Shown here piece by piece: positions 6,233 to 23,701 of a stretch of DNA of 64,000 nt (position 1 is the first letter of the stretch; every line of letters starts with the position of its first letter). The position numbers were made by a program, and so were the translations under genes. The notes under the pieces were generated by a model that was not told the DNA's origin, did no database searches, and worked only from the letters and a program-made list of their open reading frames with translations. This DNA is from Pseudoclavibacter sp. CFCC 11306 (lineage in GTDB: Bacteria; Actinomycetota; Actinomycetes; Actinomycetales; Microbacteriaceae): contig NZ_WBKF01000001.1 of the NCBI RefSeq assembly GCF_008831235.1, positions 1,484,529 to 1,548,528 on the forward strand. The letters are read 5' to 3'.

Positions 6233-6759
6233 TGCGGCTCCTTGTCGGTCATTGCGGTGTCGGTCGTTGCGGTGTCGGTCATGGTCTGCGCTCCCGTCGG
6301 CGTGCAGGCCAGCTGTTCATGGCGATGTTCGAAGGGCGTACTCAGAATAATCGTGGTTCGAGTTGTGACCCGTGCATGAAGACGAATGCTGCCGATCAGC
6401 TGTTCCAGCGCGTCGGGCCCTGCCACGCGCACGAACAGCACGTAGCTGGCCGCGCCTGCCACCGAGTAGCACGAGACGATACCCTCGACGTGATGCAGCC
6501 GCTCGGGGGCGTCGTCCGGCTGCCCGGGATCGACCGGGGTGATCTCGATGAGGGCGGTCAGCGAGCGCCCGAGCCGGTCGTAGTCGACTCGTGCCTGATA
6601 ACCCGTGATGAGGCCCGTGCTCTCGAGCCGGCGCAGGCGCAGCTGCACTGCCGACGTCGACAGCCCGGTCGCCTCGGCCAGTGCGGCGAGACGCGCCCGA
6701 CCATCGCGCATCAGCAGATCGATGATGATGCGGTCGATCTCGTCGACTCTTTCAGTCAT
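6229..6759 (-). CDS. Lrp/AsnC-family transcriptional regulator
   Basis: A 176-residue regulator with an N-terminal winged-helix domain (IDRIIIDLLMRDGRARLAAL ... LSTSAVQLRLRRLESTGLI) and a C-terminal RAM ligand-binding domain. Lrp proteins sense amino acids and often control neighbouring amino-acid or peptide genes. The last 20 residues are an unusual repetitive tail (TDTATTDTAMTDKEPQ) encoded by short direct repeats that also place the ribosome-binding site of the next gene. Being inside the operon it probably regulates, autoregulation is likely. Confidence 0.9.
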   Translation of the reverse strand: MTERVDEIDRIIIDLLMRDGRARLAALAEATGLSTSAVQLRLRRLESTGLITGYQARVDYDRLGRSLTALIEITPVDPGQPDDAPERLHHVEGIVSCYSVAGAASYVLFVRVAGPDALEQLIGSIRLHARVTTRTTIILSTPFEHRHEQLACTPTGAQTMTDTATTDTAMTDKEPQ

Positions 6760-7791: not shown

Positions 7792-9440
7792 GCCGTCACC
7801 CGCTCGATCTGCGGAGCCGCTTGCAGCAGCTTCTTGGTGTAGTCGTCCTGAGGGTCGAGCAGCACCTGTTCGGTCGTGCCGTGTTCGACGATGCGCCCCT
7901 GATGCATCACAGCGACGGTGTCGGCGATGTTCCAGGCCAGACCGAGGTCGTGCGTGATCACCAGTGCAGAGAGCCCCAGGCGACGACGCAGCCCCAGCAG
8001 CAGGGCGAGGATCTCGCCGCGAACCGACGCGTCAAGCGAGGCGACCGGCTCGTCTGCGATGAGCATCGACGGATGCAGTGCGAGCGCGCCTGCGATCACG
8101 ACCCGCTGGCGCTGCCCGCCCGAGAGCTCCTGTGGAATCGCTCCCAGATAGCGCGATGCGGGGCGCAGCTCGGCGTTCTCGATGCTCTCGACCACGCGTG
8201 CGTGCTCGTCACCGCCGTAGCCCTGGATGCGCAGCCCCTCGGCCACTGACTCGTAGACGCTGAGCTTGGGGTTCAGCGCCGCCGATGGATCCTGCAGCAC
8301 CAGCTGCACCTGCTGACGAAAGCGCCTCAGCTCTTTCGACCGCGTCGGAATGGGGCTGCCCGAGTAGAGCACCTCGCCGCCGGGATCGACGGGCTGCAGA
8401 CCGAGCAGTGCACGGGCGAGACTCGTCTTGCCCGACCCCGACTGGCCCACCAGTGCGAGAATCTCGCCGCGATGGCAGGCGAGGTTGACATCGTGCACAG
8501 CCGTGTGCGGGCGTTTGCCGGTGCGGTAGGTGATCGACACGTTGCGCGCTTCGAGCAGCACCTCATCGGTCATCTCGTGGTTCAGCCCGTCATCGGGTTT
8601 GTCTTGATGCTGGCGCGTCACCGGATGCATGCGAGATGCGGGGTCGCCGATCGTCGGGAAGGCGTGTGCGAGCTGCTGCGTGTACGGCTCGCTGGGCTCC
8701 GTGCAGATGCGGTGCGACTCGCCCACCTCGACCAGTTCGCCGCCGCGCATCACGGCGATGCGCTCACATGCGGTGGCGAGCACAGAGAGGTCGTGGCTGA
8801 TCATCAGCAGTGAGATGCCACGCTCGGTGACGAGGTGGGCGATCATGTCGAGAATCTGCTTCTGAACGATCACGTCGAGCGCGGTCGTCGGTTCGTCGGC
8901 GATGATGATCTGCGGTTCGCAGGCCAGTGCCATGGCGATCATCACGCGCTGCTTCTGCCCACCCGAGAGTTCGTGCGGGTAGCTGGCGGCCTTGGCCTTG
9001 GCCAGGTCGACCGATTCCAGCAGCTCGTGCAGACGGGCGCGCCGTGCCTCTGCGGTCTTCCATTTGCCCTTGGTGTGCAGTTCGAGAGCCTCGAGAATCT
9101 GCTGCCCCACCGTGCGCACGGGGTTGAGCGAGTGCATGGCCCCCTGGAAGACGATCGAGGCCTCGGCCCAGCGCACGGCTCGCAGCTCGCCGAAGCTCAG
9201 CTCGTCGACTCGCTTGTCGCCGAGCAGCACTTCGCCATCGATGCGTGCGTTCTTGGGCAGCAGCCTGAGCGCGCTCATGGCGAGCGTCGACTTGCCCGAG
9301 CCCGATTCGCCGGCGAGACCGAGGGTGCCGCCTTCCGGAAGAGCGAGCGAGACCCCCTTCACCGCGGCGACGGTGCCTCGGTCGTTGCGACCCGAGGTGC
9401 GATAGGTGATAGAGACGTTGTCGAAGACGAGATCCGGCAT
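7788..9440 (-). CDS. Oligo/dipeptide ABC transporter, fused double ATP-binding protein (DppD-DppF type)
   Basis: A 550-residue protein with two complete ATPase domains. Domain 1 (about 1-260) has Walker A GESGSGKST, signature LSGGQKQR and Walker B IIIADEPTTALD. Domain 2 (about 300-550) has GQSGSGKTS, LSGGQRQR and LIADEPVASLD. It energises peptide uptake through the two permeases encoded just upstream. The start at 9440 (MPDLVFDNV) lies 2 bases after the permease stop; the open frame further upstream only shadows the permease gene. Confidence 0.95.
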   Translation of the reverse strand: MPDLVFDNVSITYRTSGRNDRGTVAAVKGVSLALPEGGTLGLAGESGSGKSTLAMSALRLLPKNARIDGEVLLGDKRVDELSFGELRAVRWAEASIVFQGAMHSLNPVRTVGQQILEALELHTKGKWKTAEARRARLHELLESVDLAKAKAASYPHELSGGQKQRVMIAMALACEPQIIIADEPTTALDVIVQKQILDMIAHLVTERGISLLMISHDLSVLATACERIAVMRGGELVEVGESHRICTEPSEPYTQQLAHAFPTIGDPASRMHPVTRQHQDKPDDGLNHEMTDEVLLEARNVSITYRTGKRPHTAVHDVNLACHRGEILALVGQSGSGKTSLARALLGLQPVDPGGEVLYSGSPIPTRSKELRRFRQQVQLVLQDPSAALNPKLSVYESVAEGLRIQGYGGDEHARVVESIENAELRPASRYLGAIPQELSGGQRQRVVIAGALALHPSMLIADEPVASLDASVRGEILALLLGLRRRLGLSALVITHDLGLAWNIADTVAVMHQGRIVEHGTTEQVLLDPQDDYTKKLLQAAPQIERVTA

Positions 9441-9442
9441 GG

Positions 9443-10369
9443 TCAGCGGCTCCTCAGTGTGGGGTTGACGATCGACTCGACGGCGCGGCCGACCAAGGTG
9501 AAGGCGAGCACGACCAGAAGAATCGCGATGCCGGGAACGAGCACGTACCACCAGTACCCGCTCGTCGCAGCCGAGACGTCCATGGAGTTCTTCAGGATGG
9601 TGCCCCAAGACTGCTGGTTCGGGTCGCCGAGGCCCAAGAACGCCAGCGTCGATTCAGAGATCACAGCAGACCCGACGGTCAGCGTCGTATTGGCCATCAC
9701 CAGCGGCATGACTGCGGGCAGCACGTGCTTGAAGATGACGTGCCAGTGCCCGGCGCCGAGCACGCGCGAGCGCTCGATGTAGGCGCGCGACTCGACCGAC
9801 AGCGTCTGCGCCCGCACCACTCGGGCGGTCGAGGCCCATGAGGTGATGCCGATGGCGATCACGATCGTCAGCACGCCGCGCGACAGCACGGTCGAGAGCA
9901 CGATCGCAAGAATGAGCGACGGCAGAACCAAGAAGAAGTCGACGATGCGCATCAGCAGCCCGCCGGTGAACCCGGTGAAGTGGCCGGCCGCCATACCGAT
10001 CACGGTGCCGATGATCATCGACATCGCCGTGGCGGCGAACGCGACGATCAACGAGACTCGGGCGCCCCACAGCATCCGCACCCAGATCTCACGGCCCTGA
10101 TGGTCGGTGCCGAGAGGATGCGCCAGTGACGGCGGTGCGAAGCGCGGCTGATCCATGAGCTGCGTGACGTCGAGCATGCGCGCGGGAGCGATCACGGGAG
10201 CGAGAATGGCCAGCAGCACGATGACGACCAGGAAGATCAGACCGACCATGCCTGAACGGCTGTGGCTGAACAGTCGGAACGAGTCGCCGATGGCCTGAGT
10301 GCGACGACGCCAGGCCAGCCGTCTGGGTGATGTGGTGGATGTCATGGTGGTTTCGGTCGTGGTGGTCAT
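9443..10369 (-). CDS. Dipeptide-type ABC transporter permease (DppC-like)
   Basis: A 308-residue inner-membrane permease with the N-terminal OppC helix, the GTDHQGREIWVRMLWGARVS motif and the EAA-type loop near SRVLGAGHWHVIFKHVLP. About six membrane segments are visible. The start ATG overlaps the dppB-like stop (ATGA). The N-terminus carries a Thr-rich stretch (MTTTTETTMTSTTS) from short DNA repeats. Confidence 0.95.
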   Translation of the reverse strand: MTTTTETTMTSTTSPRRLAWRRRTQAIGDSFRLFSHSRSGMVGLIFLVVIVLLAILAPVIAPARMLDVTQLMDQPRFAPPSLAHPLGTDHQGREIWVRMLWGARVSLIVAFAATAMSMIIGTVIGMAAGHFTGFTGGLLMRIVDFFLVLPSLILAIVLSTVLSRGVLTIVIAIGITSWASTARVVRAQTLSVESRAYIERSRVLGAGHWHVIFKHVLPAVMPLVMANTTLTVGSAVISESTLAFLGLGDPNQQSWGTILKNSMDVSAATSGYWWYVLVPGIAILLVVLAFTLVGRAVESIVNPTLRSR

Positions 10370-11409
10370 GCCCGCCTCACTCTCGGGTCGAGCTGCCGGT
10401 AGATGAGGTCGGCGATCAGGTTCATCAGGATGATGATCGCGGAGAAGACGACGAAGGTGCCCTGCAGCAGCGGCAGGTCAGGACCGCTGATCGCCTCATA
10501 GGTGAGTTTGCCGAGACCTGGCCATGAGAACACCGTCTCGACGGTGACGGCGCCGGCGATCAGACCGCCGAGATGCATGAAGACCAGAGTCACCGTCGGC
10601 AGCAGCGCGTTCGGCACTGCGTGACGGCGACGAACGAGATCTTCGCGCAGGCCTTTGGCCCGTGCGGTCGTGAGGTAGTCGGCCGACATCTCTTCGAGCA
10701 GCGATGCGCGCATCACCATGACGTACTGGGCGTAGATGACCGCGACCATGGTGATCACGGGAAGAATCATGTGGCTGATCACGTCGAGCACCAGCCCGAA
10801 GCCGCTCGAGGGTGCGTTGGGCGAGACCATGCCGCCGGTCGGGAACCAGTGCAGCGTGCCCCCGAAGACCATCAGCAGAATCAGACCGAGCCAGAAGGTC
10901 GGCACCGACCAGAACACCAGCGACGTGCCGGTCGTGATCTTGTCGAACAGACCGCCGGCCTGCCAGGCCGCCTTCTGCCCGAGCCAAAGGCCGAGTGCGA
11001 TCGCGATGACCGCAGAGGTCGCCGTGAGCAGCAGCGTCGGGCCGAGGTACTGCACGATCAGCGATGACACCGACTGGTGGTACACATAGCTCTCGCCGAA
11101 GTTGCCCGAGAACACGTTGACGAGATAGTCCCAGAACTGTGCGAGCAGCGGCTTGTCCAGGCCGTACTCCTGCCGCAGCTGGGCGATCTGCTCGGCGCTC
11201 ATCTGCTTCTCACGCGCCATGGCACGCACCGGGTCGCCGGGCAGGATCTTGAACGCGAAGAATCCGAGCACGATGACCATGGCGAGGCTGATGAGCGCCC
11301 CGCCGACCTTGTTCAGCAGATACCGCAGACCTGAGCCGCCGCCAGCGACGCTCTCTTCGTCTGCCTCGTTCTGCAGCACCGCCCCGACGGGCGCCACGAC
11401 ATCAGGCAT
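10366..11409 (-). CDS. Dipeptide-type ABC transporter permease (DppB-like)
   Basis: A 347-residue permease with the DppB signatures GLDKPLLAQFWDYL and RARLLEE-like MRASLLEEMSADYLTTARAKG, followed by HAVPNALLPTVT. A clear AAGGAG precedes the ATG at 11409 (MPDVVAPVG). The first 35 residues are an extra hydrophilic N-terminus. It follows the binding-protein gene after a 119-base spacer with two hairpins. Confidence 0.95.
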   Translation of the reverse strand: MPDVVAPVGAVLQNEADEESVAGGGSGLRYLLNKVGGALISLAMVIVLGFFAFKILPGDPVRAMAREKQMSAEQIAQLRQEYGLDKPLLAQFWDYLVNVFSGNFGESYVYHQSVSSLIVQYLGPTLLLTATSAVIAIALGLWLGQKAAWQAGGLFDKITTGTSLVFWSVPTFWLGLILLMVFGGTLHWFPTGGMVSPNAPSSGFGLVLDVISHMILPVITMVAVIYAQYVMVMRASLLEEMSADYLTTARAKGLREDLVRRRHAVPNALLPTVTLVFMHLGGLIAGAVTVETVFSWPGLGKLTYEAISGPDLPLLQGTFVVFSAIIILMNLIADLIYRQLDPRVRRA

Positions 11410-11443
11410 GTCGACTCCTTGAAATCTCGACTGTTGCAGTTGT

Positions 11444-11511
11444 GTCTGCCGACCGTCGCGAGACGGCCGGCAGACGAAGCGGGGTGCGCCCGACCTCTGC
11501 GAGCGCACCCC
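11444..11511 (-). promoter_or_regulatory. Two tandem hairpins between binding-protein and permease genes
   Basis: Hairpin 1 has arms 11481-11489 and 11503-11511 (GGGGTGCGC/GCGCACCCC). Hairpin 2 has arms 11444-11457 and 11462-11475 (14 bp, one mismatch). Such structures behind a solute-binding-protein gene usually give partial termination or protect the 3' end of the message, so the binding protein is made in excess. There is no T-run. The 14-mer at 11432-11445 partly overlaps hairpin 2 and recurs at 29525-29538. Confidence 0.6.
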
Positions 11512-11528: not shown

Positions 11529-13376
11529 CTATTCGACGTCGTCAGCGCGCTTCTTGCGACGAGCGAAGAAGATGACGCCGCCGATGATCACCACGACGAG
11601 CACTCCTGCGCCCACCCACAGACCGACTGCGGTGCCTGACCCGCTGCCAGCCTCTGACGCCGGCTCGACGTTGATGTAGCTCCAGTAGCCTGCCTGACCG
11701 GCGATCATGCCGTTCGAGGCGGGCTGCGTGCCGAATCCGGTGAACCGATCCGAACGGTAGGCCTCAAGCGCCTTGCCGTACCACAGCGCGACCTGAGCGG
11801 TGTCGTCGTAGTTCAGACGCAGCATGTCGCGAACGATCTCGGTGCGCTTGTCATGATCCTGCTCTGAGCGCTGCTGTGCGTACAGCTTGTCGAACTCAGG
11901 GTTGCAGTAGCCGTCCTGCGTGGTGCCGTTGTTTCCTTCGGCGTCGGGCAGGTTCTCACACGTGTTGATGCCGAGCTGGTAGTCGGGGTCGGGGTTCACG
12001 CTCCAGCCGCTGAAGTACATGTCGTAGTCGCCCTTGGCTGCGCGATCGCTGATCGTGTCGGAGTCAGACGACTGCACGTCGACGGCGATGCCGATCGACT
12101 GCATCCACGGCTTGAAGTACTCGGCGATCGACTGCTCGGTCGGTTCGTCGGCGTCGACGAGCAGTCGCAGCGACAGCTTCTGCCCGTTCTTCTCGCGGAT
12201 GCCGTCGGCGCCGGCCTTCCAGCCGTCGTTTTCGAGCAGCTGCTTGGCGGCGTCCGGATCGAAGCTCTTGATCACTGAGTCGTCATCCGGCAGGTGCCAC
12301 TGGTCGAAGGCCGAGGGGATGAAGCTGGTCGCCACAGTGCCCTGACCGTCGAGCACCTGCTTGAGCAGCGCCTCGGAGTCGGTGCCCTGTCGAATGGCCT
12401 GTCGCACGGCCTTGTCCTGCAGTGCCGGCGATCCGGTGCCGTAGGCCTCGCCCTCGGGCGTCTTGAGCCCGGAGTTGATGCTGATCGAGGTGTACCTGCG
12501 GCCCTCGCCCGAATGGGTGGTGACGCCGTCGGCGCCGTTGAGCGCGTTGAACTGCGTCGGGCTCAGCCCGGTCACGAAGTCGATATCACCTGAGCGCAGC
12601 GCTTGCACCTGTGCGTCTGAGTTCGTGTAGTAGACGTACTGGATGCCGTCGATCTTGGGACGACCCTGCCAGAAGTTGTCATTGGCCTTGAGCGTGATCG
12701 ACTGGTTGGCCGAATAGCTCGAGAGCAGGAACGGCCCTGACCCCACGACATCGGTGTCGTTGGCGTAGTCGCCCTTGTCGGCGATGCCCTCCCAGACGTG
12801 CTTCGGCACCACCGGAATCTCGAGGCCGGGGTTCGGCGCCTGGGGGGTCTTGAGGTTGATGACCAGAGTCTGGTCGTCGGGGGCCTCGACGCTCTCGAAA
12901 TTCGAGACCAGGTTGCCGTTGGCCGTGCCGAGCTTTGAGTCGTTCATCATCTGCTCGTAGGTGAACTTCGGGTCTGCCGAGGTGATCGGCTGGCCGTCAG
13001 ACCATTTCAGGTCGGACTGCATCTTGTAGACCCAGCGCTTGCCGTCCTCTTCGACCGTCCATGAGTCGGCCAGGCCCTTGGTCGGAGATCCGTCCTGCTG
13101 ATCGTTCTGCACGAGGTTCTCATAGACGTTGCGCAGAATCTGCGTCGGCGTGAGATAGATCGAGGTGAACGGGTTGAAGCTGTCGACGTGGCCCGACGTG
13201 GCGATGCGCAGCACCTGTTCGCTGCCCTCGCCCTCTGCCTGCGTCGTCACAGACGACTGCGCCGGCTCGGCGAATGCAGCAGCGCCGATGCCGAAGGCAG
13301 AGCCCATCACCAATGCCGCGGTCGTGAACGTGGCGGCCAGCGGTCGCACCCGCCGAGAGATTTTTCCAGATCGCAT
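11529..13376 (-). CDS. Family 5 peptide-binding protein with C-terminal membrane anchor
   Basis: A 615-residue extracellular solute-binding protein of the DppA/OppA class. It has a Sec signal peptide (cleavage near AAAFA-EPAQ), the SBP_bac_5 body (VLRIATSGHVDSFNPFTSIY, WSDGQPITSADPKFTYEQMM, NDNFWQGRPKIDGIQYVYY) and then a C-terminal transmembrane helix (about 580-602) ending in RRKKRADDVE. Most Gram-positive relatives are lipoproteins; here no lipobox Cys is present and the helix replaces the lipid anchor. First gene of the peptide operon; two palindromes lie in its upstream region. Confidence 0.93.
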   Translation of the reverse strand: MRSGKISRRVRPLAATFTTAALVMGSAFGIGAAAFAEPAQSSVTTQAEGEGSEQVLRIATSGHVDSFNPFTSIYLTPTQILRNVYENLVQNDQQDGSPTKGLADSWTVEEDGKRWVYKMQSDLKWSDGQPITSADPKFTYEQMMNDSKLGTANGNLVSNFESVEAPDDQTLVINLKTPQAPNPGLEIPVVPKHVWEGIADKGDYANDTDVVGSGPFLLSSYSANQSITLKANDNFWQGRPKIDGIQYVYYTNSDAQVQALRSGDIDFVTGLSPTQFNALNGADGVTTHSGEGRRYTSISINSGLKTPEGEAYGTGSPALQDKAVRQAIRQGTDSEALLKQVLDGQGTVATSFIPSAFDQWHLPDDDSVIKSFDPDAAKQLLENDGWKAGADGIREKNGQKLSLRLLVDADEPTEQSIAEYFKPWMQSIGIAVDVQSSDSDTISDRAAKGDYDMYFSGWSVNPDPDYQLGINTCENLPDAEGNNGTTQDGYCNPEFDKLYAQQRSEQDHDKRTEIVRDMLRLNYDDTAQVALWYGKALEAYRSDRFTGFGTQPASNGMIAGQAGYWSYINVEPASEAGSGSGTAVGLWVGAGVLVVVIIGGVIFFARRKKRADDVE

Positions 13377-13647: not shown

Positions 13648-13653
13648 TATGAT
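13648..13653 (+). promoter_or_regulatory. -10 box of a leaderless C39-peptidase transcript
   Basis: TATGAT lies 7 bases before the ATG at 13661, the spacing expected when transcription starts at the start codon itself. No Shine-Dalgarno sequence is present near any of the three nearby ATGs, which favours 13661 as the start. Confidence 0.5.
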
Positions 13654-13660
13654 GCGTATC

Positions 13661-14845
13661 ATGCCAGAACTCCCTCACGCCCCTCATAGTCTTCTGCGCC
13701 GGATGACCGGCCCTCTCGCCATCGAGGGCCAGTGGATCTCTCCGTGGGCGGCATTCGACTTCGGAGCCACCGAGATCGTGCCGTCGTGGAATCTCTCGGC
13801 CCCGCCCGAGGCGACGGTCGTCGTCTCGCTGGAGGCTCGTCTCGACGACGGCACCACCACCGGCTGGCTGCCGACAGCCCGCTGGAACGACCTGCCTGCC
13901 GACATCACCACGCCGTCGGCGACGACGCGTTCCAGCGAATCCTCCGTCGCCTCCGCGCCGACGACTTCGCAGGGCGCGTCTCTGCAGGTCGACACGCTGA
14001 CGGCCGTCGCCCCCAGACGACTGACCGCCGCACGACTCAAGATAGAGATCGATGCGCCGCCAGCCGGAGAGACGCCCGCCCAAGTGGTGTTGCATCTTGC
14101 CACACTCTCCGGCTTCGCTCCCGGCAAGTGCCAGCATCGCGAAGAGATCCAGAATCACGAGCAGGGCCAGAATCACGCACAGGCCCAGAATCACGGGCAG
14201 AGCGCGAACGAGCAGGGTGCGGACGCCTCTCGGAAGCCCCCGACAGCACCGCTCGCCGTGCCGGTGCGATCACAGATGCTGCACGCCGACACCCACCGAG
14301 CGGTCGGCGGCGGCGGCGAATCGTGGTGCTCGCCGACCTCGATGGTGATGCTGCAGGAGTTCTGGCGCGGTCGTCCCCTCGACGCCGAGACGGAAGAGCA
14401 CCCGGTGCCGTGGACGGCGCTGCGCACCTACGATGCCGCATACTCACGCGCCGGAAACTGGTCGTTCAACGTCGCCCATGTCGGCCGCCGCGAAGCCGAC
14501 GGTCAGGGCCTCGAGGCTCTCGTGACTCGGCTGCACAGTCTGGCCGAGGCGCAGACGCTGACCGACGGCGGCATTCCGCTGGCGGCCTCAGTGTCGTTCA
14601 CCAGCGACGAGCTGCCAGAGGCCGGCTACGAGACCGACGGGCACCTGCTCGTCATCGCGGGTTTCACAGCGAGCGGCGACGTGGTCGTGAACGACCCGGC
14701 CGCACCGGACGACTCCGGCGTGAGACGCACATACCCTCGCGGAGTCTTCGACCTGGCATGGCGGCGCAGCAACCGAACCGTCTATCTCGTGCACCCGACG
14801 GACGTGCCGCTTCCGCCTTCGCCCGCCCACGAGCCGGCCTGGTAA
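13661..14845 (+). CDS. C39-like cysteine peptidase family protein with Gln/Asn/His repeat linker
   Basis: A 394-residue protein. Residues about 15-150 resemble an accessory beta-sandwich domain; residues 165-180 are a repeat tract (NHEQGQNHAQAQNHGQ) encoded by tandem copies of CAGAATCACG; residues about 200-385 are a peptidase_C39_2-type papain-fold domain with WCSPTS (Cys223), GHLLVIAGF (His) and VNDPAA (Asp). No signal peptide is seen. In-frame ATGs at 13649 and 13652 are alternatives. It is divergent from the peptide operon and nearly touches the convergent M20 gene, so it is probably part of the same peptide-breakdown programme. Confidence 0.8.
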   Translation: MPELPHAPHSLLRRMTGPLAIEGQWISPWAAFDFGATEIVPSWNLSAPPEATVVVSLEARLDDGTTTGWLPTARWNDLPADITTPSATTRSSESSVASAPTTSQGASLQVDTLTAVAPRRLTAARLKIEIDAPPAGETPAQVVLHLATLSGFAPGKCQHREEIQNHEQGQNHAQAQNHGQSANEQGADASRKPPTAPLAVPVRSQMLHADTHRAVGGGGESWCSPTSMVMLQEFWRGRPLDAETEEHPVPWTALRTYDAAYSRAGNWSFNVAHVGRREADGQGLEALVTRLHSLAEAQTLTDGGIPLAASVSFTSDELPEAGYETDGHLLVIAGFTASGDVVVNDPAAPDDSGVRRTYPRGVFDLAWRRSNRTVYLVHPTDVPLPPSPAHEPAW

Positions 14846-14854
14846 CAGGGCGGC

Positions 14855-16087
14855 TCACTCCGACAGCAGCACCGCCAGCATTTCGATGCGCTGGTACAGC
14901 GTCGGCAGCACGATGTGTTCGCTCACCGCATGCGCTCCGCCGCCCAGCGGGCCGAATCCGTCCACGGTCGGCACGCCAAGCGACCCGACCAGATTCGTGT
15001 CACCGGCGCCGGCGGCCGGTCGGCCTGAGATCTCGACCCCCATCGCCGCACCGGCCCGCGCGACCCGATCGCAGAGCGCCGCGTCGGCATCCCCCGCCAG
15101 CCAGGCCGGGCGGTGGCTGAGCACCTCGACGTCGACCACTGCTCCCTCGCGAACCGGAGTCAGATGCTGCAGGGCGTCGAGCACGGTGCGCTCCGACTCG
15201 CCGTCGATGAAGCGCAGCCCCAGCTCGGCCTCGGCATGCGCCGCCACCACGTTGGCACGGGTACCGCCGCTGACAGTGCCCGAGTTGCACAGCACCTCGG
15301 TGTGCTCGCTCGCTGCCGCCACGATGCCGCGCACCCGCACGAGCTGGTCGACCAGCTCGTCGATCGCGCTGATGCCCTTCTTCGGGTCGAGCGCGGCGTG
15401 GGCGGCACGCCCGGTGACCGCGATGCGCACTCGCGTGCTGCCGCGACGACCCACTTTCAGCGCTCCGTCAGGGTGCGGCGACTCGAACCCGATCGCTCCG
15501 GCGACGCCCTGCAGCGCACGCCGCATCAGCTGCTGTGAGGTCGGCGACCCGACCTCTTCGTCGGCCACGATGATGATGCGCACGGGGCGATGCTCACGAT
15601 CACGCAGCACCTCAAGCGCCGTGAGCATGCAGATCACGCCGCTCTTCATGTCGTAGACACCCGGCCCCCGAACGACGTCGCCGTCGACGACCCAGGGCAC
15701 GTCGCCCTGCAGCGTGCCGAACGGCCAGACCGTGTCGGAGTGGCCGATCAGCAGCAGCGGCCGCAGATCGGCCTCGCTCGGCGCGCCCGAAACGGCAGAT
15801 GCTGCGGCGACGGGGGCAACGGGGGCGGATTCAGCGGCCTGCGCGTCGAACCGGCCGGTGCCCGGCACCTCGATCAGCAGGTGCACGCCGGCTTCGGTCT
15901 CGATGCGCTCGACCGTGCCGCCGACCGCCTCGAACCATGCGCCGAGCAGATCGGTGATCTGCCGCGACGCTTCGAGGGCGAACGAGGGAGTCTCAAGCAT
16001 GACCAGCTCGCGCAGCCGTTCGAACACCCGCTCTCGGCCATTCTGCACTCGCTCGTGGATCTCACTGCTCGTCGTCACCGCGTTCAT
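14855..16087 (-). CDS. M20-family carboxypeptidase (glutamate carboxypeptidase/CPG2-like), candidate N-acyl-amino acid hydrolase
   Basis: A 410-residue zinc metallopeptidase: LLLIGHSDTVWP (metal His and catalytic Asp), GPGVYDMKSG (metal Asp), VADEEVGS (general-base Glu) and the dimerisation-domain motif TGRAAHAALDPKKGISAIDE. Such enzymes remove a terminal acidic residue or hydrolyse N-acyl amino acids. The start at 16087 follows AGAGGAAG; the open frame continues upstream without support. An Ala/Pro-rich insert lies at about residues 105-125. Divergent from a GNAT-SIS-racemase operon, it fits as the N-succinyl-L-amino acid hydrolase of a D-to-L conversion route. Confidence 0.88.
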   Translation of the reverse strand: MNAVTTSSEIHERVQNGRERVFERLRELVMLETPSFALEASRQITDLLGAWFEAVGGTVERIETEAGVHLLIEVPGTGRFDAQAAESAPVAPVAAASAVSGAPSEADLRPLLLIGHSDTVWPFGTLQGDVPWVVDGDVVRGPGVYDMKSGVICMLTALEVLRDREHRPVRIIIVADEEVGSPTSQQLMRRALQGVAGAIGFESPHPDGALKVGRRGSTRVRIAVTGRAAHAALDPKKGISAIDELVDQLVRVRGIVAAASEHTEVLCNSGTVSGGTRANVVAAHAEAELGLRFIDGESERTVLDALQHLTPVREGAVVDVEVLSHRPAWLAGDADAALCDRVARAGAAMGVEISGRPAAGAGDTNLVGSLGVPTVDGFGPLGGGAHAVSEHIVLPTLYQRIEMLAVLLSE

Positions 16088-16244
16088 CGTCGCTTCCTCT
16101 GGTCTCTCGTTCTGCTGCCTGCCGAGGCAGTCTGTCATCTCGCCTTTATTACCGACGATGTGACACATAAACCGAGGATACCTTTCCTGAAGAAATGCGG
16201 GAGTCACCGTATATCTTGCTAACAAACCTGAAACATAGGATACG

Positions 16245-16250
16245 TATACT
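16245..16250 (+). promoter_or_regulatory. -10 box for the GNAT-racemase operon
   Basis: TATACT ends 8 bases before the GTG start at 16259 within the AT-rich element GGATACGTATAC, and no ribosome-binding site is seen. A near-leaderless transcript is likely. The palindromic ACGTAT/ATACGT core recurs near 13496 and 13641, in the other divergent promoter region of this cluster. Confidence 0.4.
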
Positions 16251-16258
16251 CGTCTTCT

Positions 16259-17113
16259 GTGAACACTTGCACGACTTCTCAGCCCGGCTCGAAACGAGCG
16301 GCCGGGGCCGCGGCCCCGCAAGACTTAGCGCTCTGGAGCGGCACGCTCTCAGAGCACGCCGAGTTCATCGAGGCCAGCGCGCTCTACAACCGCGTCTTCC
16401 GATACGGAGACAAAGGGCTGGCCCTCAACAGCAACCTGCTCAGCGCCTTGGTGCACAACGGTGGCTCGGCTGTGGGCGTGCGCGCGCCCTCGGGCGACCT
16501 GATCGGCTTCGCCTACGGTTTCCCGGGAACCGACGGAACCCACTCATTTCATTACTCTCAGGCGGCAGTCGTCGACCCGGCATTCCAAGGGCACGGCATC
16601 GGCCGCATGCTCAAAGAGCAGCAGAAGCAGGTGGCGCTGGGCTGGGGCTCTCACCGCATGCACTGGACGTTCGACCCGATGCTCTCACGCAACGGGCACT
16701 TCAACTTCAACTCGCTGGGCGGCGTTGGCGTGAAGTTCGTCGAAGACTACTACGGTCGCGAGCGCACCGACCGCGTGCTCGTCGAGTGGATTCTCGACGA
16801 CCGCCCCGATCCCTATGCCCAATACCGCAGCCTCGCTCCGCAGAGCGCACTGGGCGAGAGCGACTGGGGGCACGTGATCGCCGATGGCGATCGGCGCTGG
16901 GTGCCGATCGATGCGGGCATCAGCTCTGGCGACGACGAGACCGAGGCGATCAGCTGGGGCCGGGCCAACCTGCGGTCGAGCCTGCACGACCTGTACGACC
17001 AGGGCTTCGTCATCGTGAGCTGCCGGCGTCTGACCGCTGAGACGTCGGTCTACCTCGCGGTGGAACGAGCCGATGATGCTCCGACGCCTGCACCGAAGGA
17101 GGCCGCCAAGTGA
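16259..17113 (+). CDS. GNAT acyltransferase (COG3375 type), candidate D-amino acid N-succinyltransferase
   Basis: A 284-residue acyl-CoA-dependent N-acyltransferase. The acetyl-CoA-binding motif A is visible as VDPAFQGHGIGRMLKEQQ (about 106-125), followed by MHWTFDPMLSRNGHFNFN, which marks the COG3375 group. In Geobacillus a GNAT of this type next to an N-succinylamino acid racemase succinylates D-amino acids; the same neighbour is present here two genes downstream. It starts with GTG, probably leaderless, and its stop overlaps the next start (GTGA). Confidence 0.85.
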   Translation: MNTCTTSQPGSKRAAGAAAPQDLALWSGTLSEHAEFIEASALYNRVFRYGDKGLALNSNLLSALVHNGGSAVGVRAPSGDLIGFAYGFPGTDGTHSFHYSQAAVVDPAFQGHGIGRMLKEQQKQVALGWGSHRMHWTFDPMLSRNGHFNFNSLGGVGVKFVEDYYGRERTDRVLVEWILDDRPDPYAQYRSLAPQSALGESDWGHVIADGDRRWVPIDAGISSGDDETEAISWGRANLRSSLHDLYDQGFVIVSCRRLTAETSVYLAVERADDAPTPAPKEAAK

Positions 17114-17904
17114 CGCCAGACACCCCGCAGGAACGGGCCGAGCGCCTGCACGACCGCACCCTCTCGTCACCGCACGACCGGTTCGGCGAGCGTCTCAAGA
17201 CGAACGCCACCGCAGAGGTGCTGCAGACCCGTCTGATGCAGGCAGAGGTCGCCTCGCTCAACACCACGTTCGAGCATCTGACCGAATCGGGCGCGCTGCC
17301 GACAGCCGCTGCTGCTCTGCTCGGCGCTCGTCGTCGCTATATCGTGGGCGCAGGCAAGTCGGCGACCTACGCCGCGCTGCTCGCCGCCGACCTCTCGGCG
17401 GCACTCTCGAACGTGTTCAGCGTCGACGGCCAGTCGTTGACCGAGCTCACCGTGCTCACCGACGTGCGCGCCACCGACGTGCTCGTGGTCTTCTCGCTGC
17501 GTCGCTACCGCGCCGAGAGCGTGCGCTTCGGTCGCCTGTTCGCCGAGGCCGGCGGCACGCTGGTGGTCGTCACCGACTCGGCGGATGCCCCGCTTGCGTC
17601 GCTGGCGTCATGTCTCGTGATCGTACAGACCGGTTCGGCCTCCTATGCCGACTCCCCCACATCCGTGGCAGCCGTCTGCCACGTGCTCAGCGCGCTCACC
17701 GCTGCGAGCGCCAAGGGCGCCCGACGACGGCTGACCCTGCGCGATCGCATCAGCGCCACACTGGGGCTGTATCATGCAGAGCCGGTCGCCACCGACGCGT
17801 CCGCCGCCGGCAGCGACCCCGCAGAAAAGGGCACGGGCGCGCAGCGCAGCGCAACCCGGAAGCACCGCACGCACGACCACCAGAGAGGGAACTCCGACCG
17901 ATGA
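17110..17904 (+). CDS. SIS-domain protein, RpiR-like but without the HTH domain
   Basis: A 264-residue product. Residues about 45-225 match the linker and SIS sugar-isomerase domain of RpiR regulators (ALLGARRRYIVGAGKSATYA; DVRATDVLVVFSLRRYRAE; VVVTDSADAPLASLASCLVI). The roughly 75-residue helix-turn-helix domain that normally precedes it is absent: the protein begins about where the inter-domain linker would. It may be a phospho-ligand-binding partner, an isomerase, or a degenerate regulator. Its tail is basic and low-complexity (RKHRTHDHQRGNSDR). Start and stop overlap both neighbours by 4 bases. Confidence 0.75.
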   Translation: MTPDTPQERAERLHDRTLSSPHDRFGERLKTNATAEVLQTRLMQAEVASLNTTFEHLTESGALPTAAAALLGARRRYIVGAGKSATYAALLAADLSAALSNVFSVDGQSLTELTVLTDVRATDVLVVFSLRRYRAESVRFGRLFAEAGGTLVVVTDSADAPLASLASCLVIVQTGSASYADSPTSVAAVCHVLSALTAASAKGARRRLTLRDRISATLGLYHAEPVATDASAAGSDPAEKGTGAQRSATRKHRTHDHQRGNSDR

Positions 17905-19073
17905 AGATCACCCGCATCCAGCTGCACGAGGTGCGTCTGCCACTCGTGCACAGCTTTCAGACCAGCTCGCATCGCAAGTCGAGCCTCGATCACATTCTGG
18001 TCGAGCTGACCGACGACGCAGGTCGCACCGGCTGGGGCGAGATCGCCTCGCCCGCCGACCCCTTCTACTGCCCAGAGACGACCGACACCGCCTGGCTGAT
18101 CTCAGAGCGCTATCTCGTGCCCCGTGCGCTGGACGCCGACTGGGCGACGCCTGCCGAGCTCGAGACCGCCTGGGCGAAGATCCGCGGGCACGAGTTCACC
18201 AAGGCCGGCTTCGTCGGCGCGGCCTGGGATCTGTGGGCGAAAGCCGAGGGCGTCTCGCTGGCGTCGGCGCTGGGCGGCACCCGGCACGAGGTGCGCGCGG
18301 GCGTGTCTCTCGGCATCGAGCCGACCATCGACGCGCTGCTCGAGCAGGTCGAGAAGCAGCTGGTCGCCGGTTACCACCGCATCAAGCTGAAGATCGCACC
18401 GGGGTGGGATCTCGAGCCGGTTCATGCCGTGCGTGCCGCGCACCCCGACATCGACCTGCATGTCGACGCCAACGGCGCCTACACCAGCGACGACCAGACG
18501 ATCGACTACCTGTTGGGCCTTGACGCTGCGCATCTGACGATGATCGAACAGCCTTTCGCTCCACGCGACTTCGTGGGACACGCCCGACTGCAGCAGCGCC
18601 TGCAGACCCCGGTGTGCCTCGACGAGTCGGTGGTCTCTCTCGACGACCTGCAGACCATGATCGCGCTCGACGCCGGCCGCGTGCTCAATATCAAGGTGTC
18701 CCGCATGGGCGGGCTCACCGTCGCGAAGACGGCACACGACCTTGCGACCGAGCATGGCATCCCCGTCTGGTGCGGCGGCATGCACGAGTTCGGCGTGGGG
18801 CGCGCTGCCAACGTGGCCATCTCGTCGCTGCCGGGCTTCACGCTGCCCTCAGACGTCTCAGGCTCGGACAAGTACTACGCTCGCGACGTCATCGTGCCGC
18901 CGGTCGTCGCCCACGACGGCACCGTGGCCGTGCCGTCGGCCCCGGGCATCGGGCACGAGGTCGATGCCGATTGGGTCGCCGAGAACCGGCTGCGCCACCT
19001 CGACACCGATCTGGCTGAGTCTGCTCCGCACGGATCCGCTGAGATGCACACGGTTCCGCTCACATCGGCCTGA
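17901..19073 (+). CDS. Enolase-superfamily N-acylamino acid racemase / o-succinylbenzoate synthase-like
   Basis: A 390-residue muconate-lactonising-subgroup enzyme with the full catalytic set: KLK (Lys162 and Lys164), metal ligands Asp189 (HVDANGAY), Glu216 (MIEQPF) and Asp241 (CLDESV), and Lys265 (LNIKVSRMGG). CGGMHEFGVGRAANVAISSLPGF resembles N-acylamino acid racemases more than dedicated MenC enzymes, and the neighbouring GNAT and M20 genes point to N-succinylamino acid racemisation; no men genes are nearby. The last 20 or so residues are encoded inside a palindromic intergenic-type repeat (19029-19112), so the C-terminus may be a repeat-derived extension. ATGA overlap with the SIS gene. 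Confidence 0.88.
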   Translation: MKITRIQLHEVRLPLVHSFQTSSHRKSSLDHILVELTDDAGRTGWGEIASPADPFYCPETTDTAWLISERYLVPRALDADWATPAELETAWAKIRGHEFTKAGFVGAAWDLWAKAEGVSLASALGGTRHEVRAGVSLGIEPTIDALLEQVEKQLVAGYHRIKLKIAPGWDLEPVHAVRAAHPDIDLHVDANGAYTSDDQTIDYLLGLDAAHLTMIEQPFAPRDFVGHARLQQRLQTPVCLDESVVSLDDLQTMIALDAGRVLNIKVSRMGGLTVAKTAHDLATEHGIPVWCGGMHEFGVGRAANVAISSLPGFTLPSDVSGSDKYYARDVIVPPVVAHDGTVAVPSAPGIGHEVDADWVAENRLRHLDTDLAESAPHGSAEMHTVPLTSA

Positions 19074-19112: not shown

Positions 19113-19173
19113 AGCTCCCCCATTCACCCTGTCTCCCCACCAGCACCCCAGCACCCGCACGAAAGAAGTCACA

Positions 19174-20052
19174 ATGTCAGCACCAGTCCTGTTCTTCGTC
19201 GACGAACTCGCCGAAGGCGTCAGCGCTGAACAGCGGTTCCACCAGGCCGATCCTGATGCGCCGCACATCAACGTCATGGATCTGAGCGTCACCCGCGGTG
19301 ACGGCATCTTCGAGACGGCTGGCGCCCAGCACGGCATTCTGATGGCCATCGACGCGCATCTCGCCCGCTTCGCGCACTCGGCCGCCATGCTCGATCTGCC
19401 GAAGCCGCGGCTCGACGTCTGGCAGGCGGCCATCGAGGCCGCCGTCGCCGCACATGAGCCGGCTGATCTGCTCTCGGCGAAGTTCATCATGACCCGCGGA
19501 ATCGAAGGCACTGGGGTGCCGGTCGGCTGGGTGTACGTCTTCGAGGGCGATGAGCACGACGGCGAGCGCGAGCATGGCATCTCGGCCGTCACTCTCGACC
19601 GCGGCTACCGTCACGACGTGGCGAAGACGTCGCCCTGGCTGCTGCAGGGAGCGAAGACTCTGTCGTACGCGGTGAACAAGGCCGTGCTTCGCGAGGCCGC
19701 CCGTCGCGGCGCCGACGACGTCATCTTCATCAGCAGCGACGGCTTCGTGCTCGAGGGGCCGACCTCGAGCGTCATCCTGCTCATCGACGGGCGCTTCGTC
19801 ACCCCGTCGACCGACCAGGGCATCCTCGCGGGCACCACGCAGGCCGACGCGTTCGCCGTGCTCGAGTCACTGGGCCATGAGACCGAGTACCGCGAGGTCG
19901 CCGCCGACGAGCTGGGTCGTGTCGACGGCCTGTGGATGCTGTCGAGCACCCGGTGCGCGGCTCCCGTTCGCGAGCTCGACGGGCATGCCGTGCCGATCGC
20001 TCGTGAGATCACCGATCAGCTGAACGACGCGCTGCTGGTGCGCACGAAGTAG
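19174..20052 (+). CDS. Class IV PLP-dependent aminotransferase (D-amino acid aminotransferase / branched-chain type)
   Basis: A 292-residue fold-type IV enzyme with RGDGIFETAG at residues 41-50, the PLP lysine in GAKTLSYAVNKA (Lys161) and the cofactor-phosphate loop EGPTSS. This family includes D-amino acid aminotransferase, BCAT and aminodeoxychorismate lyase; the subfamily cannot be fixed by eye, but the surrounding D-amino acid genes favour D-amino acid transamination. AAGAAG precedes the ATG. About 100 bases with a repeat element separate it from the racemase gene. Confidence 0.85.
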   Translation: MSAPVLFFVDELAEGVSAEQRFHQADPDAPHINVMDLSVTRGDGIFETAGAQHGILMAIDAHLARFAHSAAMLDLPKPRLDVWQAAIEAAVAAHEPADLLSAKFIMTRGIEGTGVPVGWVYVFEGDEHDGEREHGISAVTLDRGYRHDVAKTSPWLLQGAKTLSYAVNKAVLREAARRGADDVIFISSDGFVLEGPTSSVILLIDGRFVTPSTDQGILAGTTQADAFAVLESLGHETEYREVAADELGRVDGLWMLSSTRCAAPVRELDGHAVPIAREITDQLNDALLVRTK

Positions 20053-20161: not shown

Positions 20162-21250
20162 ATGTCGTCACAGAGCCTCACTGATTCCGCATCAGCGGCA
20201 TTCCCCGCAGCAGCCGAGCTGCCGCTCGTCTTCGACGGGCACAACGATCTTGCCTGGGCCTGCCGCGAGCATCACGACTACCGTGTCGACGGAGTCGGAA
20301 CAGGTCTGCCAGATCTGCACACCGACCTGCCACGGCTGAGAGCCGGTCGCGTCGGGGGCCAGTTCTGGTCGGTCTGGGTCGACGACGAGGCGCTGCACGG
20401 CGCCGAGCAGGTGACCGCGACGTTGGAGCAGATCGACTTCGTGCATCGGCTGGCGGCGCAGTATCCCGACGATCTGCAACTGGCCCGCACCGCGGCAGAG
20501 GCTCGGCAGGCCATGCAGCGCGGCCGCATCGCATCGCTGATCGGCATCGAGGGCGGCGACCAGATCGACGAGTCGCTTGGGGTACTGCGCTCGTACGCCC
20601 GGCTCGGCGCCCGCTATATGACGCTCACCTGGGCTCAGACGATTCCGTGGGCAGACTCGTCGACTGACGAACCGCGCAGTCATGGGCTGAGCGAGTTCGG
20701 CCGGGAGGTGGTCGCCGAGATGAACCGCATCGGCATGCTGGTCGATCTCGCCCACGTCTCGGATGCGACCATGAGCGACGCGCTCGACGCATCCACACTG
20801 CCCGTGCTGGTGAGCCATTCAGGAGCGCGCGCCCTGTGCGACCACCCGCGCAACGTTCCTGACGAGCTGATTCGGCGCATCGGTGCCAGCGGCGGCGTGC
20901 ACATGGTGGCCTTCGTGCCATCGTTCGTCAGCCAGGCGCGACGCGACTGGGTCATCGGCGGCGAGCAGGGAGAGCCGCCGATGGTGACTGTCGCCGACGT
21001 CGCCGACCACATCGAGCACGTGCGCGACCTCGCAGGCGTCGACGCCGTCGGAATCGGCGCTGACTACGACGGCACCGGCAGCATGCCCAGCGGACTCGAC
21101 GACGTCAGCGGCTACCCCCGGCTGCTCGCCGAGCTCGCCGACCGTGGCTGGTCGCACGCAGATCTCGACAAGGTCGCCCACGAGAACGTGCTGCGCGTTC
21201 TGGAGGCCTCAGACGCGAACCACCTCGCCTTTCTCGCAGGCGAGCGCTGA
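20162..21250 (+). CDS. Membrane-dipeptidase family (M19) zinc dipeptidase
   Basis: A 362-residue renal-dipeptidase homologue that cleaves dipeptides, commonly those with a C-terminal D-residue, and dehydropeptides. Metal ligands and signatures are intact: DGHNDL (His27, Asp29), GIEGGD (Glu130), LTWAQT, VDLAHVSD, PVLVSHSGAR and GIGADYDG. No signal peptide is evident, so it is probably cytosolic despite the family name. L-D or D-L dipeptides freed by the other peptidases of the cluster are its natural substrates (inference). Confidence 0.93.
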   Translation: MSSQSLTDSASAAFPAAAELPLVFDGHNDLAWACREHHDYRVDGVGTGLPDLHTDLPRLRAGRVGGQFWSVWVDDEALHGAEQVTATLEQIDFVHRLAAQYPDDLQLARTAAEARQAMQRGRIASLIGIEGGDQIDESLGVLRSYARLGARYMTLTWAQTIPWADSSTDEPRSHGLSEFGREVVAEMNRIGMLVDLAHVSDATMSDALDASTLPVLVSHSGARALCDHPRNVPDELIRRIGASGGVHMVAFVPSFVSQARRDWVIGGEQGEPPMVTVADVADHIEHVRDLAGVDAVGIGADYDGTGSMPSGLDDVSGYPRLLAELADRGWSHADLDKVAHENVLRVLEASDANHLAFLAGER

Positions 21251-21356: not shown

Positions 21357-22112
21357 ATGACCACCACCGACCGTCTGACAGCCCGCACCGCACCTCGTGT
21401 GCTCGTCGTCGTCAACTCCACGTCGAGCGGCCTGCGCCGTCTGGAGCGGTGGCTCGAAGAGGCCGGGCTCGACCTCGACCAACGGATCGGCAGCGAGGGC
21501 CTGCCCACCGGCCTCGACGGGTACGACGGGTACGACGGGCTCGTGATGCTCGGCGGGGGGCTCATGCCCGACGACGACGAGCGTGCGCCCTGGCTCGCTC
21601 AGGAGCGCCGGCTCGCCGCCGAGGCCATCGACCGTGATCTGCCCACCCTCGGCATCTGCCTCGGCGGTCAGGTGCTTGCCCAGGTGTGCGGCGGCACAGT
21701 CAAGGCCAAGACGGGTGTGCCAGAGCGAGGGATGACCCGCATCAGCACCACATCGGCGGGAACGGCAGACCCGGTGATCGGCGTCTTGGCCCCCTCTGCG
21801 CCCATGATCGAGAACCACGAAGATCGCATCACCGCGCTCGGCGATCAGGCCGTGCTGCTGGCCAGCAGCGCCGACTGCGAGTTCCAGGCCTTCCGACTCG
21901 GTCGGCATGTGCGCGGGCTGCAGTTTCACCCTGAGGTGAATGCCGAGCGGCTGCGCACTTGGGACGACGCAGCGCTGGCAGAGCAGAACTTCGACCTGGC
22001 TCGCATGATCGCCGAGGCCGACGCCCATGACGGCGAGAACACCGCGATCAGCCGCGCGCTGGCCGACGCCTTCGCCGGCGAAGTGCGCGAGCATGCCGAG
22101 GTCTCTCGATGA
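21357..22112 (+). CDS. Class I glutamine amidotransferase-like protein
   Basis: A 251-residue stand-alone GATase1 domain with the nucleophile elbow GICLGGQ (Cys101) and the His-Glu pair in LQFHPEV. It resembles the GMP-synthase-like amidotransferases that hydrolyse Gln or gamma-glutamyl compounds; no synthetase partner is next to it, so a gamma-glutamyl-peptide hydrolase role is possible. A DGYDGYDG duplication lies at about residues 54-61. Its stop overlaps the next start (ATGA). Confidence 0.88.
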   Translation: MTTTDRLTARTAPRVLVVVNSTSSGLRRLERWLEEAGLDLDQRIGSEGLPTGLDGYDGYDGLVMLGGGLMPDDDERAPWLAQERRLAAEAIDRDLPTLGICLGGQVLAQVCGGTVKAKTGVPERGMTRISTTSAGTADPVIGVLAPSAPMIENHEDRITALGDQAVLLASSADCEFQAFRLGRHVRGLQFHPEVNAERLRTWDDAALAEQNFDLARMIAEADAHDGENTAISRALADAFAGEVREHAEVSR

Positions 22113-23701
22113 GTCTGCACGTCGATCATCTGCGACCTGATCGCGACGCGCTGGCGGCTGCCGGTGCGGCGGCGCTCGAGCAGCGTCTCGATGCGGCAAC
22201 ACTGCGCCTGGCACCCTCGTTCAGCGCCGCGGTCTTCGACGCGGACGGCGTGGTCGCCTGGGTCGGCCGAGGTCACCAGCGACGAGATGCGGCCACACCG
22301 ACACGTGGCACGATCTATCGCATCGCCTCGATGTCGAAGAGCTTTCTGGGTGCGGCGGCGTTGGTGCTGCGAGACGAGGGCCGACTCGACATGCACGCGC
22401 CGGTCACAGACTATGTGCCCGAGTTCGCAGCGGCGACCTACCAGGGTCGACCGGTGCATGTGACGCTCGACATGCTGATGTCGAACCGCGCCGGCCTGGC
22501 CGAAGACAATCCCTGGGGAGACAACCACCTCGGCGCCTCTCGGGCCGAGATGAGCCGAGTGCTCAGCGACGGGCTTCGGCTCGCCCTGCCCCCGGACGAG
22601 ACCTATCAGTACTCCAACCTGGGCATCTCGCTGATCGGGCGCGCCATCGAACAGGTGACCGGGCAGCCTGTCGAACGGTTCGTCTCAGAGCGGCTGCTGC
22701 GCCCTCTGGGCCTGCACCACACCGCCTATTCACTCGACGACATCGCGACCGAGTCTGCTCGGCCTGACGCCGCGACCGGCTGGCGCACCTTCGATTCCGG
22801 TGCGTCGTGGGCGAACGAGCCCTATGTCGGCTGCGGCGCGCTCGGCTGCATTGGGGCGCTCTTCAGCACCGTCGACGACATCGCCGCATGGGGAGGTTTT
22901 CTGCGCTCTGCCTTCACGGACCATCCACTGAGCGAAGACGTGCTCTCGGCTGCGTCACGTCGCGAGCTGCAGCGGGTGCACACCATCATCGCCGGCACTG
23001 ACGAACGGCTGTCGAGCCGGCCGCTCACCGGTGCGGGATACGGCTACGGTCTGGTCGTCGAACACCATCGACGTCTCGGCCGCATCGTGCAGCACTCGGG
23101 AGGTCTGCCCGGGTTCACCTCGCATATGCGCTGGCACGTCGACAGCGGTGTGGGCGTGGTCGTCTTCGGCAACAGCGACGCCACCAGTGCCGCAGCCATC
23201 GCGATCGACGTGCACGACCGGCTGCTCGACGAGGTCGTGCTCACATCGACTGGCGAGCCGAGCCGAGCCGAGCCCGCCGGTGTGCTCGGGGCTCAGCTGC
23301 GCCCATGGCCCGAAACGCTGCGCGCCGCCCGGCTGCTCGATGCGCACGTGCGCACCGGCGAGCAGTCGATCGCCTCGCTCAGCGATCTCTTCGCACGAAA
23401 CGTCCTCACTGACGAGCCCGCCGACGTGAGAGACGCCGCTCTGAACGCAGCCAGGGCGCGCGTCGGAGGCGTGCCTGCCGCAGCATCCGCCCTCGAAACC
23501 CGCCTGATCGACGCCCCCACTGAGGCCGTGCTGCGATGGCGTGTGCCGGGTGCAGCCGGCGAGCTGATCTGCACGCTGCGGATGGTCGGGCTGAGCCACC
23601 CGCTCGTCCAGGCATTCAGCGTGGTCGCAGGAGACGCCGCTGCCGACGATCGGCCGAGTGCCATGCGCAGCCTGCCGGTGACTGCCGAACCTGGTCGGTG
23701 A
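22109..23701 (+). CDS. Class C beta-lactamase-fold serine hydrolase (D-aminopeptidase/esterase-like)
   Basis: A 530-residue serine hydrolase with SMSK (Ser74-Lys77), the Tyr-x-Asn motif YSN (168-170) and the HxG-type motif QHSGGLPGF. An extra domain of about 150 residues follows the catalytic core, as in D-aminopeptidases and related esterases. There is no signal peptide. It is the third signal-less penicillin-recognising hydrolase of the cluster and ends the plus-strand run, converging on the C1B peptidase gene 18 bases away. Confidence 0.85.
   Translation: MSLHVDHLRPDRDALAAAGAAALEQRLDAATLRLAPSFSAAVFDADGVVAWVGRGHQRRDAATPTRGTIYRIASMSKSFLGAAALVLRDEGRLDMHAPVTDYVPEFAAATYQGRPVHVTLDMLMSNRAGLAEDNPWGDNHLGASRAEMSRVLSDGLRLALPPDETYQYSNLGISLIGRAIEQVTGQPVERFVSERLLRPLGLHHTAYSLDDIATESARPDAATGWRTFDSGASWANEPYVGCGALGCIGALFSTVDDIAAWGGFLRSAFTDHPLSEDVLSAASRRELQRVHTIIAGTDERLSSRPLTGAGYGYGLVVEHHRRLGRIVQHSGGLPGFTSHMRWHVDSGVGVVVFGNSDATSAAAIAIDVHDRLLDEVVLTSTGEPSRAEPAGVLGAQLRPWPETLRAARLLDAHVRTGEQSIASLSDLFARNVLTDEPADVRDAALNAARARVGGVPAAASALETRLIDAPTEAVLRWRVPGAAGELICTLRMVGLSHPLVQAFSVVAGDAAADDRPSAMRSLPVTAEPGR

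Follow-up and report, generated by a model that had tools for sequence, protein, structure and literature searches.

The Geobacillus N-succinylation pathway comprises a D-amino acid N-succinyltransferase, an N-succinylamino acid racemase (NSAR), and an L-desuccinylase. In dpp-ykf of Bacillus subtilis, a Dpp-type transporter, an S66 gene, and an enzyme of the enolase superfamily are clustered; dipeptide epimerases acting on cell-wall dipeptides occur in other LD-carboxypeptidase clusters. In the present study, a DNA stretch of 64,000 nucleotides from the actinobacterium Pseudoclavibacter sp. CFCC 11306 (contig NZ_WBKF01000001.1, positions 1,484,529 to 1,548,528; hereafter the window) was analysed, in which genes for an M20 hydrolase (M20a), a GNAT acyltransferase, a SIS-domain protein, and a racemase of the enolase superfamily lie among genes apparently for the use of D-peptides. 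The window shares the clustering of transporter, S66, and enolase-superfamily genes with dpp-ykf, whereas its enolase-superfamily enzyme is NSAR-like rather than a dipeptide epimerase and has a GNAT partner.

I conclude that the four genes quite likely form the D-to-L branch of a cluster for D-peptide catabolism, in which succinyl is one possible acyl group. The module is a divergent branch of the known pathway, and its interest lies in the changed active site of the racemase, the swapped hydrolase, and the orphan SIS protein rather than in its completeness.

Gene order and linkage of the four-gene module

All four genes of the first-pass annotation are present where it had placed them, as judged by reading frames and profiles (Table 1). 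The M20a gene on the minus strand faces an operon of overlapping GNAT, SIS, and racemase genes on the plus strand (16259-19073). M20a starts with the ATG at 16087 and reads down to 14855; with a start at the TTG at 16321 the frame would be longer and overrun the GNAT start, which makes that start less likely. The GNAT frame runs from a GTG at 16259 to a stop codon at 17113. The overlaps between the three genes of the plus strand read GTGA and ATGA, so that these genes look translationally coupled. The sequence TATACT is found 8 bases upstream of the GTG with which the GNAT gene begins (16245-16259) and would fit a leaderless transcript. The order M20, GNAT, SIS, and racemase is the same in the three other genomes of the genus.

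Is the pairing of GNAT and racemase more than an accident of this locus? From a scan of named genomes with a GNAT alignment, the best 80 of at least 588 confirmed stretches, ranked by GNAT similarity and not by context, were kept, and gene distances were measured between stop-to-stop frames. A racemase of the family was found on 68 of the 80 loci, within 500 bp on 57 and within 3 kb on 67; counted among the 68 are an incomplete racemase (L099) and an archaeal one on the opposite strand (L100). On 37 of the 80, an M20 gene was found no more than 4 kb away. The linkage of GNAT and racemase is beyond chance. In the structural model of the GNAT (mean predicted local distance difference test score, pLDDT, 89.6), a GNAT domain is joined by a C-terminal part, and the best PDB folds are GNATs, while a PDB sequence search gave weak GNAT matches only and no close solved relative.

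In Geobacillus icigianus (L110), the M20, GNAT, and racemase genes stand in a row. The GNATs of the window and of this species are 30% identical over 247 columns and the racemases 48% identical over 355 columns. Thus the Geobacillus pathway and the window module have in common a homologous adjacent GNAT-racemase pair with an M20 gene beside it. They differ in that the M20 of the window belongs to another subfamily, its GNAT and racemase fall in divergent clades, and its module adds a SIS gene and sits among D-peptide genes.

The divergent racemase and acyltransferase clades

The racemase passes the NSAR/o-succinylbenzoate synthase (OSBS) subfamily profile TIGR01928 with 295.6 bits (cut-off 200.65), and the PDB entries it matches best bear the name of N-acylamino acid racemase or OSBS (Amycolatopsis 1sja, E 4.9e-86). 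In the alignment, K161, K163, D189, E214, D239, and K263 (1sja numbering) are all kept; I take positions 161/163, 189, 214, 239, and 263 to be the two lysines and the three metal-binding acids of the barrel. For the enzyme of Geobacillus kaustophilus, PMC8142540 tabulates racemisation of N-succinyl-phenylalanine.

The profile bears the name of o-succinylbenzoate synthase, and related enzymes are bifunctional according to PMC4215206, which would suit a role in menaquinone synthesis. The window genome has, however, a separate dedicated MenC gene, which passes PRK02901 with 409.5 bits (cut-off 288). The first-pass annotation had named a dedicated menaquinone MenC with OSBS activity only as an identity that would undo its reading; this identity was rejected for the window racemase on the strength of the other gene. 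The operon with a GNAT gene, the lack of men genes in it, and the clade residues described below point the same way, and the racemase is almost certainly not the menaquinone enzyme. Membership in the enolase superfamily, together with the nearby S66 and Dpp genes, might rather suggest an epimerase of the L-Ala-D/L-Glu type working on cell-wall dipeptides. The two epimerase profiles, however, give 72.6 bits against a cut-off of 500 and 53.9 against 343, far too low to pass, whereas TIGR01928 is passed, and a racemase accompanies the GNAT on most of the loci scanned. A dipeptide epimerase was rejected on the profile cut-offs and the GNAT linkage, and I regard it as very improbable.

Eighty-three racemase sequences were aligned, 13 of the clade of the window and 70 others including 1sja. 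At 22 positions the clade has a residue that is fixed in at least 12 of its 13 members and is seen in at most two of the 70 others. Position 293 (1sja numbering) is His in all 13; the 70 others without exception have Leu, Val, Phe, or Ile there. Several of the 22 positions group at 1sja 24-31, 48-49, 264-267, and 293-322, loops that presumably shape the pocket. At positions 291, 293, and 323, engineered Amycolatopsis racemase sequences in the PDB depart from the wild type, and only 293 of the three distinguishes the clade; position 323 is Tyr in the window as in most of the family. A G291D/F323Y mutant is used in PMC4823265. The window racemase shares 46% identity over the aligned length and the catalytic residues with 1sja, the classical actinobacterial NSAR/OSBS, which also has an M20a-type neighbour in several loci of its kind. 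In contrast, 1sja has GGMIETG where the clade has GGMHEFG, differs at other residues, and lies outside the clade in the tree.

In a tree of 64 racemases, the clade forms one group with a support of 100 by the Shimodaira-Hasegawa-like approximate likelihood ratio test (SH-aLRT) and a stem of 0.86 changes per column; in a tree of 70 GNATs (model LG+G4), the GNAT clade likewise forms one group, with a support of 99. Both trees are quick searches supported by SH-aLRT only, on 64 of 83 and 70 of 97 rows, 19 and 27 loci having been removed by name as near-duplicates and some others. Within the family (398 genomes in 85 genera), 18 genomes and 13 genera have a match to the GNAT with an E value of at most 1e-30. 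A second racemase, 43-45% identical to that of the window, was found in six of the eight clade genomes searched outside the genus; the one of G006 (L074) falls outside the clade by the tree, and the other five were classed by identity. The clade was not found described in the literature searched, which covers few subscription papers and some papers only in part.

Given the divergent clades and the changed active site, the N-succinyl label is not simply transferable to the window module. I read the differences as a possible shift in specificity, in which the three-step logic is kept for another acyl donor or for one class of D-residue; this reading overlaps with the D-to-L branch and is a serious one, to which I would give somewhat less than an even chance. 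The two well-supported clades with the long racemase stem suggest it, as do the 22 residues, among them 293 and 322, the engineered status of 293, the second racemase in the same cells, and the other type of M20. The fixed differences may also be drift after a single origin, Tyr323 is shared with most of the family, and the usual donor is probably at hand: the C-terminal domain of 2-oxoglutarate dehydrogenase E1 is present in all 30 genomes checked, so succinyl-CoA should be available. Racemase engineering would profit from such a natural clade, in which the pocket loops are presumably changed and which comes with an acyltransferase clade and a hydrolase of its own. Its His at 293 occupies a site altered in engineered N-acylamino acid racemases.

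The M20 hydrolase and the SIS protein

The best PDB match of M20a is carboxypeptidase G2 (E 1.7e-25), and the metal-ligand and catalytic Glu positions, taken from the alignment with carboxypeptidase G2, are kept in 19 of 19 copies. The G. icigianus M20 passes TIGR01891, whereas for M20a the highest-scoring profiles are PRK07338 and PRK06133, neither of which reaches its cut-off; by profiles and pairwise score, M20a is not of the same M20 subfamily. In 58 related genomes, eight of the nine M20a relatives scoring at least 139 bits have a GNAT or racemase gene at a distance of about 3 kb or less. The exception, G041:C1, does not, nor does a tenth, weaker relative in G034. M20a is therefore likely the module partner of GNAT and racemase. 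Two of the three Geobacillus steps are thus homologous, and the third slot is filled by another type of M20. The first-pass claim of a complete Geobacillus-type N-succinylation set thus holds in part: every reaction slot is filled, the GNAT and racemase are homologues of the adjacent Geobacillus pair, and an M20 gene adjoins them, but this M20 is of another type and the chemistry, succinyl included, is presumptive.

Besides five loci of the clade, 18 of the best 80 GNAT loci have a SIS protein within 8 kb, one titled Arthrobacter and the others Bacillota. The Bacillota operons of RpiR, M20, GNAT, and racemase share the presence of a SIS protein in the gene set, while their SIS domain carries an HTH_6 domain and that of the clade stands alone. 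HTH_6 was over the cut-off in all five proteins tested among these 18 (L102, L105, L143, L121, L151), which makes them RpiR regulators; in that of L112 it was below the cut-off (24.5 against 28.3), and it was absent in all four clade proteins tested (window, L073, L091, L094). The whole window genome has one HTH_6 match, elsewhere and below the cut-off. The top PDB folds for the model of the window protein (pLDDT 83.1) are RpiR SIS domains, namely 3sho, RccR 8k3b, and MurR 7en5, although the input alignment of the model held RpiR rows, which may bias this match. The clade SIS protein may or may not descend from the RpiR regulator of the Bacillota pathway: clade SIS proteins score 57.7-83.7 bits with a Bacillota-only profile, and background proteins up to 56.3.

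On this evidence, the SIS protein is probably an RpiR-like ligand-binding accessory or sensor without the DNA-binding part, though it may have an enzyme role. A sugar isomerase was tentatively set aside, the sole enzyme profile match being 24.7 bits against a cut-off of 160 and RpiR folds ranking first. An RpiR-like protein without a helix-turn-helix raises the question of what such a sensor does without binding DNA. In the SIS tree (7 of 17 background loci, L112, and a second L147 protein; long branches), the RpiR-M20-GNAT-racemase operon L123, titled Arthrobacter beigongshangensis, falls inside the Bacillota, which may reflect a recent transfer or a mislabelled assembly.

The proposed pathway and its D-peptide surroundings

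From the observed gene identities, linkage, catalytic residues, and clades, I infer the activities, their direction, and a link to the peptidases as follows. Peptides with D-residues would be imported by the Dpp-type transporter and cut by the S66, M19, and beta-lactamase-fold hydrolases. The GNAT would transfer an acyl group from an acyl-CoA onto the freed D-amino acid, the NSAR-type racemase would interconvert the N-acyl-D and N-acyl-L forms via two lysines, and M20a would deacylate the L form. This last step would pull the reaction to the L-amino acid, with one acyl-CoA spent. Homology with Geobacillus makes succinyl the first guess for the acyl group, but with its changed active site this branch may work with a different acyl group or on fewer kinds of amino acid. 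The SIS protein would serve as a ligand-binding accessory related to RpiR regulators. Such a module would tie N-acyl racemisation to feeding on D-peptides, perhaps cell-wall peptides.

Is the association conserved? A survey by tblastn (over 60 bits) covered 26 clade loci, that is, the window and 25 others; the stretches are unequal in length, so that the counts are lower bounds (L070 and L071 were counted with their extensions L228 and L229, and a weak Dpp match in L225 was not counted). The GGMHEFG motif is present in all 26. M20a is found in at least 22, divergent from the GNAT gene every time, and SIS in at least 21; in the stretches searched, SIS was not found in L215 and L226, nor M20a in L093. 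Dpp permeases are found in at least 16 loci, M19 together with the glutamine amidotransferase-like gene in at least 15, and S66 in at least 14. In Kribbella (L094, L095) and G006 (L073), an amidohydrolase-3 gene follows the racemase.

Several observations weigh against the D-to-L branch as drawn here. Passing TIGR01928 does not separate NSAR from OSBS activity, and according to PMC4215206 the relevant function of the Amycolatopsis enzyme was judged to be OSBS. No racemase was found on 12 of the best 80 GNAT loci, of which three (L113, L156, L170) are cut off by the end of a contig. The 22 clade-specific residues argue against copying the succinyl label. M20a and the G. icigianus M20 are barely related (25 bits, E 0.004), while two further M20 genes of the window (25119-26324 and 51775-53019) pass TIGR01891 and score 67.8 and 95.9 bits with the G. 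icigianus M20; either could be the module hydrolase. Genes for Dpp, S66, M19, and the amidotransferase-like protein were not found beside the module in 35 kb of G002, a genome from the same genus (L072, L230), or in the stretches searched of L217 and L224. The tie to D-peptides is thus not strict: the module does lie among D-peptide genes in the window, as the first-pass annotation had it, yet several loci do without them. Finally, in three loci of Nesterenkonia, GNAT and racemase genes are present and neither M20a nor SIS was found; in one of them (L097), TRAP-transporter genes follow the racemase.

The surroundings of the module might also be read otherwise. The C45 acyltransferase/hydrolase and, further on, a second M20 gene and an amidohydrolase-3 gene would suit a module for the salvage or detoxification of preformed N-acylamino acids or N-acyl peptides, with a GNAT substrate other than free D-amino acids. 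The GNAT-racemase pairing, however, persists across phyla without these genes, and I consider salvage improbable.

For the succinyl version of the D-to-L branch, the genus of the window has a peculiarity. Succinyl-CoA synthetase beta (TIGR01016) gave no match in its four genomes and is present in the other 26 of 26; the CoA-ligase domain PF00549 gave no match in the same four and is present in both relatives tested. A succinyl-using cycle in this genus would release succinate from succinyl-CoA. At best this would be a secondary role, because the synthetase is present in the remaining clade genomes checked. It is conceivable, though I think it rather unlikely as a whole, that the entire actinobacterial module has changed specificity, working beside a classical pathway in the same cells on D-residues from imported D-peptides such as those of the cell wall, with an RpiR-type sensor that no longer binds DNA, and that in this genus, which has 2-oxoglutarate dehydrogenase and no succinyl-CoA synthetase found, a succinyl cycle could make succinate.

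Table 1. Coordinates of the module and of neighbouring features in the window, with strand and supporting evidence
Feature	Position	Strand	Evidence and proposed role
M20a: M20 metallohydrolase, carboxypeptidase-G2/PRK07338-like	14855..16087	-	Peptidase_M20 85.1 bits; proposed N-acyl-L-amino acid hydrolase
M20a-GNAT divergent intergenic region, 171 bp	16088..16258	.	sequence; TATACT at 16245-16250
GNAT acyltransferase	16259..17113	+	Acetyltransf_1 27.4 bits; proposed acyl-CoA:D-amino acid N-acyltransferase
SIS-domain protein, probable RpiR-like sensor domain without HTH_6	17110..17904	+	SIS 49.4 bits
NSAR/OSBS-subfamily N-acylamino acid racemase, divergent GGMHEFG clade	17901..19073	+	TIGR01928, alignment, tree, clade residues; MR_MLE_C 167.4 bits
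Fold-IV aminotransferase (aminodeoxychorismate-lyase / D-amino acid transaminase-like)	19171..20052	+	Aminotran_4 149.3 bits
M19 dipeptidase	20162..21250	+	370 bits
Class-I glutamine amidotransferase-like protein	21357..22112	+	60.8 bits
Class-C beta-lactamase-fold hydrolase	22109..23701	+	167.2 bits
C39-like peptidase	13649..14845	+	59.2 bits
Dpp/Opp-type solute-binding protein	11529..13376	-	SBP_bac_5 296.2 bits
Dpp/Opp-type permeases (10366-11508, 9443-10369) and fused double ATPase (7788-9608)	7788..11508	-	profile search
S66 LD-carboxypeptidase	6781..7791	-	two domains, 101.4 and 89.1 bits
Lrp/AsnC-type regulator	6229..6759	-	profile search
Beta-lactamase2-fold hydrolases (3526-4374, 5411-6232) flanking C45 acyltransferase/hydrolase (4323-5414)	3526..6232	-	profile search

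The fold-IV aminotransferase downstream of the racemase is below the cut-off of NF005888 (271.9 against 273) and above that of NF005886 (260.7 against 253). In G002, the racemase is followed by two tandem fold-IV aminotransferases (61% and 77% identity; L072 9538-11539, L230). Farther along the window, a pyridoxal 5′-phosphate enzyme (31920-33560) matches a D-serine ammonia-lyase profile with 584.5 bits (cut-off 246); the match spans residues 198-545 of 546 and leaves about 197 N-terminal residues unexplained. Between the C1 peptidase and DAO genes lie M20b, amidohydrolase-3, and Na+/H+-antiporter-like genes (25119-29510). In G003 and G002 of the same genus (L070, L072), C1 and DAO adjoin directly; thus, these genes look like an accessory insertion.

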